From assembly GCF_002159915.1 (NCBI RefSeq), contig NZ_NFJP01000013.1, positions 1 to 64,000 on the forward strand: 64,000 nt of DNA, given 5' to 3'. Shown here in pieces: positions 62,307-63,854 of this stretch. Within the stretch, counting starts at the first letter, position 1, and the number at the start of each line of letters is the position of its first letter. The position numbers and the translations under genes were made by a program. Under the pieces are notes generated by a model that was not told the origin of the DNA, did no database searches, and worked only from the letters and a program-made list of their open reading frames with translations. Source of the DNA: Gordonibacter sp. An230. GTDB taxonomy: Bacteria; Actinomycetota; Coriobacteriia; Coriobacteriales; Eggerthellaceae.

Positions 62307-63854
62307 TCAGGGCTTGCATTTTTTGCAAGGCACATACCCGAGGTTGATGGCTTCATCCCTTGACGATAGATAGGCTCGGTTCTTCTCGTCGGGAAGCGAT
62401 CCGCAGGTCGGGCGGTGAAACTTGTGAGTATTCACGTTTCCGATGTACTCCCCGCCGCTTGAGGGGCTGCTCTGGGATGCAGCGGCGTTTTCGGCTTGGG
62501 AGACAGCAGCTGCGGCAGCGGCCGCCGCTGCCGCTTCTTCAGCGGCCTGCCGTTCCGCTTCTGCCTGGGCGGCCGCTTCCGCCTCCTTCTGCCTCTCTGC
62601 CTCCTGAGCGGCCAGGAGGGCCTTTTCGTCTTTGACCAATACCAGCGTGAGCAGCTTGTCCTTGGTGCCGTCGAAGGTGCACTTAGGCGAGCTCGCTGTG
62701 AACGGGATGCCGTTGCAGACGAGGGACTCCCCGGTAACGGAGATCGCATAGTCGCCGGCATCGCACGGGTACTCGTAAGTTGTGCCCACAAGGACTTCCC
62801 GCTGGTCGGAAACGATCGTCCCGTCTGCGGTTTTTCCCTCGATGGACACCTTCACGGGTATGCTCTTGTCGGGCCAGTCGGTTCCGACGACCTTGAAGGT
62901 GAGCACGCCGTTGGCGCTTTCGGGTGCTTCCTGCATCGACGTGGGAGGGCTTGCGGCGCCGTCTTGGCTCGACGATGCGCTCGGGGAGGACCCCGAGCAG
63001 GAGGCAACCGCCAGGACGAGCCCGAGCAGGATCGATGCGGCGCCTGCCCAAAGCGTCGCCTTGGGTGCCGTTGGATTGCCTGAGGCGCCCTTGCCAGCCT
63101 CCTTCGCCCTTAGAAAGAGGCCTGCGCCTCCAAGGATCGCCCCTGGCAGCCCCCATTGCGCAAGGCACAGGGCAAGCCCCAGCGCTACCAGTGCGAGTGG
63201 GATGTACTTCCGGTACTTCAGCCAGGTGCTTTCCGCTGCAGCCGAGACGGCTGCAGAGCCGGTTGGCTTTGCCGGCGCGGTGCCCGAGGCTGCGCTTGGG
63301 GCAGGGGCCTTGGGTGCTGGCTTGGGCTTTCCCGCAGCGGCTGTGCCCTTTCCGTGTGCGGATTCGTCTGCCGGTTCCGCATCCATACCCTTTGCTCTGT
63401 GTGGGGCGTCACCAGGGTTCTTGTGGCCGGCTTCGCCCTGGGTGCGCTCGGCATCCGTGGTTGCGGCTTCGCCTTTGGCCGATGGGGTGGCTTTGCCGGT
63501 GGCCTGGTCGGCGCCCCGGTCCGCACCTTTCCGCGCCGCAGCATCCCCTTGCCCTCCGCCGGCGCTTTCCGCGGTGCGAACAAGTTTCATCTTGCCATGT
63601 GAGGGGTATTCTATCAGGCCCTCTGCCTTCAGCTCCGACCGCGCTTTCTCGCACCTGTTCTCTAGCAAAGTAGTCTTGCTTCCCTTGATCTTATAACCCC
63701 GCTGCTTTGCCGAGAGACCCAGGCTGGACGAGACGTCTTTCACGACGGCCTTGCACGAACGCGCCCGCCCGCTGCCGAGCTCGGCCAGGATGGCAACCTT
63801 CAGCTCCTCAACCTGCGGAACGTCGTTGCGGGTGATGTTGTCTTCGTTGCTCAT
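62307..63854 (-). CDS. Composite membrane protein: winged-helix-like N-terminus, two membrane helices, zinc-binding C-terminus
   Basis: Protein of 515 residues. The N-terminus (about 14-92; VEELKVAILAELGSG, ENRCEKARSELKAEGLIEYP) looks like an Mrr-N/winged-helix module. An Ala/Lys/Pro-rich linker (95-210) follows, then two membrane segments (about 218-250 and 265-288), an external beta-type domain (310-405) and an Ala/Glu coiled coil (410-450). The end is an Ada-like metal motif (470-515): HKFHRPTC, then SSRDEAINLGY, then CKKC. That motif also closes some secreted nucleases. Start ATG at 63854 follows AAGGCCC. Function not recognised; topology would put the zinc motif outside the cell. Confidence 0.72.
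   Translation of the reverse strand: MSNEDNITRNDVPQVEELKVAILAELGSGRARSCKAVVKDVSSSLGLSAKQRGYKIKGSKTTLLENRCEKARSELKAEGLIEYPSHGKMKLVRTAESAGGGQGDAAARKGADRGADQATGKATPSAKGEAATTDAERTQGEAGHKNPGDAPHRAKGMDAEPADESAHGKGTAAAGKPKPAPKAPAPSAASGTAPAKPTGSAAVSAAAESTWLKYRKYIPLALVALGLALCLAQWGLPGAILGGAGLFLRAKEAGKGASGNPTAPKATLWAGAASILLGLVLAVASCSGSSPSASSSQDGAASPPTSMQEAPESANGVLTFKVVGTDWPDKSIPVKVSIEGKTADGTIVSDQREVLVGTTYEYPCDAGDYAISVTGESLVCNGIPFTASSPKCTFDGTKDKLLTLVLVKDEKALLAAQEAERQKEAEAAAQAEAERQAAEEAAAAAAAAAAVSQAENAAASQSSPSSGGEYIGNVNTHKFHRPTCGSLPDEKNRAYLSSRDEAINLGYVPCKKCKP

Follow-up and report, generated by a model that had tools for sequence, protein, structure and literature searches.

What could be the function of a protein that joins a DNA-binding-like domain, through the membrane, to an Ada-like metal motif? 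Such a protein, 515 amino acids long, is encoded in the window, the 64,000-nucleotide stretch of the Gordonibacter sp. An230 genome analysed here (Table 1). The original prediction, made from the letters of the DNA, described an N-terminus resembling an Mrr-N winged helix, a membrane-spanning middle and a C-terminal HxxxC...CxxC motif of the Ada/nuclease type. Profile searches of each part bear out this anatomy: the Mrr_N and Ada_Zn_binding domains at the two ends both exceed their curated Pfam cut-offs, so that their joining is real, and three membrane helices are predicted between them by hydropathy and by the structural model. In the model, built with AlphaFold2 from four sequences, a disordered linker joins the winged helix to the three membrane helices, after which come a CnaB/transthyretin-like beta domain, a long helix and, last, the tail. 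The overall confidence of the model is low (mean pLDDT 67.5, pTM 0.28), so the predicted coordinates do not fix the mutual arrangement of the domains; the winged helix, beta domain and tail mostly have pLDDT values of 80-94 per ten-residue block. GC content at the third codon position is 0.72 in this gene, lower than in the genes on either side (0.97 and 0.96).

Table 1. Positions in the window of the 515-aa protein gene and of the segments of its product
Feature	Residues	Coordinates	Strand	Basis
Whole gene	1-515	62307..63854	(-)	ORF, ATG start
Cytoplasmic winged helix, Mrr_N type (predicted)	13-93	63576..63818	(-)	Pfam Mrr_N, fold, winged-helix matches
Ala-rich disordered linker	96-211	63222..63569	(-)	Block pLDDT mostly 31-38; 29% Ala over 96-210
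Membrane helix 1, LKYRKY just before	215-231	63162..63212	(-)	Hydropathy and model
Membrane helix 2, then positively charged loop	235-254	63093..63152	(-)	Hydropathy and model
Membrane helix 3	265-284	63003..63062	(-)	Hydropathy and model
Lipobox-like LAVASC, end of membrane helix 3	281-286	62997..63014	(-)	Sequence
Extracellular CnaB/transthyretin-like beta sandwich (predicted)	316-408	62631..62909	(-)	Model and structure matches
Ala/Glu-rich single helix	410-458	62481..62627	(-)	Model; 46% Ala over 412-467
Ada-like HCCC metal tail (H480, C484, C510, C513)	468-515	62310..62453	(-)	Pfam over cut-off

The Pfam Mrr_N model matches residues 20-91 (E 3.6e-8; 33.9 bits, above the curated cut-off of 29.5), with an E-value of 7.5e-10 when the N-terminus is searched alone. 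AlphaFold2 predicts a winged-helix fold there with pLDDT 88-94 by block, and structure comparison finds winged helices in the PDB that match about residues 7-93 with Z scores up to 9.5. This domain is shared with the Mrr type IV restriction endonucleases; the N-terminal domain of EcoKMrr has been listed as “Presumed DNA binding” (PMC3874153). In contrast to those enzymes, the window protein has membrane spans and an external module but no catalytic domain: the Mrr C-terminal nuclease domain has no Pfam match in it up to E 10, and Pfam likewise matches no nuclease or other effector domain, including Endonuclease_NS and DNA-entry nuclease domains, and no dimerisation domain. As no nuclease domain was matched, an intact restriction enzyme, one of the candidates considered, is ruled out.

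Full-length relatives of this gut-bacterial protein are rare. At E 1e-6, a profile of the N-terminal domain matches 7 of 395 genomes of the order: that of the window and those of six full-length relatives, found in Gordonibacter sp. 28C (G094), Paraeggerthella hongkongensis (G054), Enteroscipio rubneri (G028), two members of one further genus (G103 and G092) and a member of another family (G294). The profile has no match in the two further genomes searched from the window's genus, one of which encodes a different Mrr_N protein. In the class sample, searched with a profile of six family N-termini (alignment A3), 19 of 396 genomes match at E 1e-3 and seven of these have a full-length protein; of the other loci that were read, most look by eye like Mrr-type, other nuclease or McrB-type ATPase fusions, and two are poor matches, one in a frame not convincing as a gene (L070) and one a fragment (L071). 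In the phylum sample, 9 of 396 genomes match at E 1e-6. Apart from the window's genome these are eight, and the one of the eight that was read (G201) has an Mrr-type protein by eye. Residues 1-96 of the window protein are 41-51% identical to those of five relatives, and five residues of the putative recognition helix (N66, R67, K70, A71 and R72) are invariant in all six rows of A3, whereas L059, the most distant member, has only R67 of the five.

The charge pattern, together with the existence of lipoprotein-like relatives (L052, L012 and L015), places the C-terminus most likely outside the cell, in an N-in/C-out topology with three predicted membrane helices; the topology check, run by prediction, agrees in this with the earlier claim that the motif is exported rather than cytoplasmic. 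In all seven full-length proteins, helices 2 and 3 are joined by a loop of net positive charge, and the segment past helix 3 is either neutral or of net negative charge. Ahead of helix 1 the charge is less uniform: it is net positive in four of the seven (the window protein, G094, G103 and G092), but in G028, G054 and G294 it is neutral or negative. In the same-locus relative L052, the stretch that aligns with membrane helix 3 is a signal-peptide-like start with a lipobox. The window protein has a lipobox-like LAVASC at this place, whose Cys is absent in the six other full-length relatives aligned; cleavage there would free the surface part from the DNA-binding part.

The first domain past the membrane has no significant Pfam match. 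In structure searches, its fold (residues about 315-408) resembles the beta sandwiches of CnaB, pilin and adhesin domains, with Z scores up to 10.4, and transthyretin is also among the Foldseek matches.

At the C-terminus, Pfam Ada_Zn_binding matches residues 468-515 (E 2.4e-8, 34.3 bits against a cut-off of 23), with the four metal ligands spaced as H480-x3-C484-x25-C510-x2-C513. All four are invariant in the 31 proteins of alignment A6 (genes of the 30 loci read for the best matches of a longer list, plus L059 from the class sample), although only 13 of these have a tail that Pfam recognises as Ada-type. Some rows of A6 run from stop to stop and include sequence upstream of the true start; the row of L047 lacks its last six residues in alignments A2 and A5, the tail being whole in A6 and A1. 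In structure searches, the tail has no match of its own among the matches listed, which a single domain can fill.

A phmmer alignment of the tail with the N-terminal domain of Ada (PF02805; PDB 1adn) is weak (E 0.005) and agrees with the Pfam result. All four ligand positions align, with C484, C510 and C513 on three of the Ada ligands and H480 on the fourth, Cys38, which we take to be the methyl acceptor. Since a histidine stands at this position, the methyl-accepting cysteine is missing, and a methyl-phosphotriester sensor of the Ada kind, another candidate considered, is ruled out, the residue being His in 31 of 31 proteins. The window tail further differs from that of Ada in its predicted location outside the cell. 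The Ada repair protein has, in addition, AraC helix-turn-helix and methyltransferase domains, neither of which has a Pfam match up to E 10 in the window protein.

The HCCC tail recurs as an exported module on extracellular nucleic-acid enzymes of Coriobacteriia, namely, secreted Endonuclease_NS_2 and ComEC-like MBL lipoproteins, which, unlike the window protein, have matched enzyme domains. Endonuclease_NS families are matched by 12 of the 31 proteins of A6, a share biased toward tails like the window's because the loci were chosen as best matches; ComEC/MBL models are matched by 2 and Mrr_N by 7, and A6 includes the seven full-length proteins. Among the 30 other tails, the closest to that of the window protein are in two ComEC-like MBL lipoproteins, L018 and L019 (62% and 57% identity), whereas the tails of its own full-length relatives, which are of a shorter type, are only 27-36% identical to it. 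This suggests, at the level of sequence, that the tail may have been exchanged, or has diverged, with the metal site kept. The only other tail-bearing protein detected in the window's genome (L101:3940-4887, contig G000:C1) is, by eye, an Endonuclease_NS-like secreted lipoprotein. In a search for mobile contexts, matches in plasmids (2 records) and phages (3 records) came through the tail only; two plasmid proteins matched solely in this way are annotated as MBL fold hydrolases, and the PHROGs match of the tail is to a family of unassigned function. NCBIfam “sunset” models match the window protein weakly, far under their cut-offs. Weak matches to these models are also seen in up to 6 of the 31 proteins of A6, a hint of kinship between two small domains.

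What would such an assembly do? Of the roles raised by the original prediction (DNA uptake, signalling and defence), signalling fits the anatomy best, and the other two have little support from the gene neighbourhoods. Our tentative choice, held with somewhat less than even confidence, is a membrane-tethered DNA-binding protein with a ToxR-like one-component layout, coupled to a surface metal module. ToxR has an OmpR-type winged helix and a single membrane helix, whereas the window protein has a winged helix of the Mrr_N type, three predicted membrane helices, a metal tail and no known regulon. The general plan is nevertheless predicted to be the same, with a winged helix inside, a membrane span and an external domain; ToxR-type regulators are described as having a cytoplasmic DNA-binding domain linked through the membrane to an external one (PMC7496328). 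In the proposed mechanism, the Mrr_N winged helix would sit inside the cell on a flexible linker of about 115 residues, with the beta sandwich, a rigid helix and the HCCC tail outside. The tail would bind zinc and may serve in docking or in the binding of a ligand, perhaps nucleic acid, as suggested by the secreted nucleases and ComEC-like MBL proteins that bear similar tails. Occupancy of the tail might then change how the winged helix inside is clustered or placed, and the winged helix would bind DNA and alter transcription. It is from the anatomy only that we infer a function as a regulator; no linked target gene was found for the window gene, the SDR/116-aa pair that neighbours the gene in relatives lying on another contig. 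If the winged helix does bind DNA, the protein would be a one-protein link from the surface to the chromosome that uses a reader domain of the restriction type.

This pair of genes marks a locus at which the two halves of the protein come apart. A gene for an SDR protein and a gene for a 116-aa protein adjoin the full-length gene, or lie one called frame off, in G094, G103, G092, G028 and G054. At the same locus, G070 has a gene in which the winged helix is gone and the membrane part is kept; the G032 protein (L052) is missing membrane helices 1 and 2 as well as the winged helix, and has the beta-helix-tail unit behind a short N-terminus that ends in a lipobox; and G009 has only a truncated copy that begins inside the beta domain. 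By the N-terminal profile, G070 and G009 have no member elsewhere in the genome, and in G032 the profile finds only an McrB-type protein elsewhere. These natural deletions make the two halves separable, and, because the three relatives at one locus lack the winged helix, the surface module looks like the core and the winged helix like an add-on lost in some lineages.

Such a history would also suit a protein that works mainly at the surface, its beta-helix-metal tail capturing or docking something at the envelope and its winged helix serving as a dispensable anchor or nucleoid tether. We consider this rather unlikely. In its favour, the three same-locus relatives retain the surface unit wholly or partly, two further proteins (L012 and L015) resemble lipoproteins that have the beta-helix-tail arrangement but lack a winged helix, and the tail type varies among relatives while the ligands stay. 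Rates of divergence, read with the reservation that synonymous sites are near-saturated in most pairs, point both ways. Of five regions, the tail, and not the winged helix, is least diverged in the pairs G103/G054 and G094/G054; for the close pair G103/G092, dN/dS is at its highest in the winged helix (about 0.45, as against 0.27 in the beta domain and 0.23 in the tail), and the genus of this pair also holds G070 and G032, both without the winged helix. Against a mere anchor, the winged helix is better conserved than the other four regions when the window protein is compared with G094 and with G103, having the least non-synonymous difference (pN 0.34 and 0.32; 0.45-0.59 in the others), it is the least diverged region also between G103 and G028, and it is kept in the 7 of 395 genomes of the order, which belong to two families.

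We also compared the gene neighbourhoods, in which the original prediction had proposed to look for defence or competence genes. Neighbouring genes were called by a simple script and not by a gene finder, so that some false frames are included; scans with PADLOC and with Pfam covered ten selected neighbours each, and the others were read by eye. The window gene is neighboured by genes for a 429-aa protein, which has no Pfam match at 1e-5, and for asparagine synthase. Defence genes were indeed found near the gene of G294 and weak matches at that of G054, but no competence genes were recognised in the nine neighbourhoods read by eye.

The latter result weighs on the idea of an accessory for DNA uptake or extracellular DNA that would hold DNA on both sides of the membrane, which we regard as quite improbable. 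It would account for the likeness of the window tail to those of the two ComEC-like MBL lipoproteins and for similar tails on secreted nucleases, and a ComEC match is present in all ten genomes examined, over the cut-off in seven. However, ComEC is also matched in G070, G032 and G009, all without the winged helix, so its presence does not discriminate. Least probable of the readings named, and about as improbable as that none of them holds, is a defence sensor whose Mrr_N domain detects foreign or modified DNA at the membrane: the N-terminus matches the PADLOC mREase_IV model (E 6.6e-5, confined to residues 12-93), the gene of G294 has DUF4143-AAA (PDC-S01), pAgo-like and DUF3800 matches nearby and, at a distance of about 6-9 kb, AbiLi-like and PtuA/PtuB-type genes, and a neighbour in G054 weakly matches pAgo and CARF-type models (E 1e-5 to 2e-7), but the protein has no effector domain by Pfam, three window-side neighbours have no PADLOC match at 1e-5, and the remaining full-length loci have, among selected neighbours scanned and others read by eye, ordinary metabolic or transport genes alongside.

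Both end domains of the membrane-tethered regulator proposed here are already known; no paper on the architecture that combines them, an Mrr_N winged helix, membrane helices and an Ada-like tail, was found among the papers listed. We give little credence to the further step that the family is a new class in which an Mrr-type winged helix is connected across the membrane to an exchangeable external HCCC module, of the kind also borne by secreted nucleases and ComEC-like proteins, so that contact with DNA or metal outside would be read onto the chromosome.

Several observations concern the loci themselves. The gene group at L100:10864-18909 (G294:C18), downstream of the family member, with PDC-S01, pAgo-like, DUF3800, AbiLi, PtuB and PtuA matches, is likely a defence island. 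The pair of SDR and 116-aa genes is conserved at L046:7807-8941 and likewise at L047-L052 and L102. Pfam gives no match at 1e-5 for the 116-aa protein, whose gene is found in 16 of the 120 genomes searched, with a family gene within the examined flanks in 5 of the 16. The linkage is not required, because the window's genome has both genes on another contig (C26), with no family member alongside.

Exact inverted repeats (6-13 bases, gap of at most 12) were sought as a sign of an operator. The window gene has none within 250 bases upstream, nor do the genes of G094 and G028 have any, and those in the other six of the nine regions compared are not seen to be shared beyond the close pair G103/G092. 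By eye, the upstream regions of five relatives (G103, G092, G028, G054 and G070) have in common a promoter-like stretch, GCTAGAAT. Genes for a histidine kinase and an ABC transporter lie near the family gene at L047:10315-12922, where the permease-like neighbour of the kinase is unmatched in Pfam and the kinase itself is matched, and the same genes are seen by eye at L049, L050 and L052, the four loci lying in genomes of one genus.
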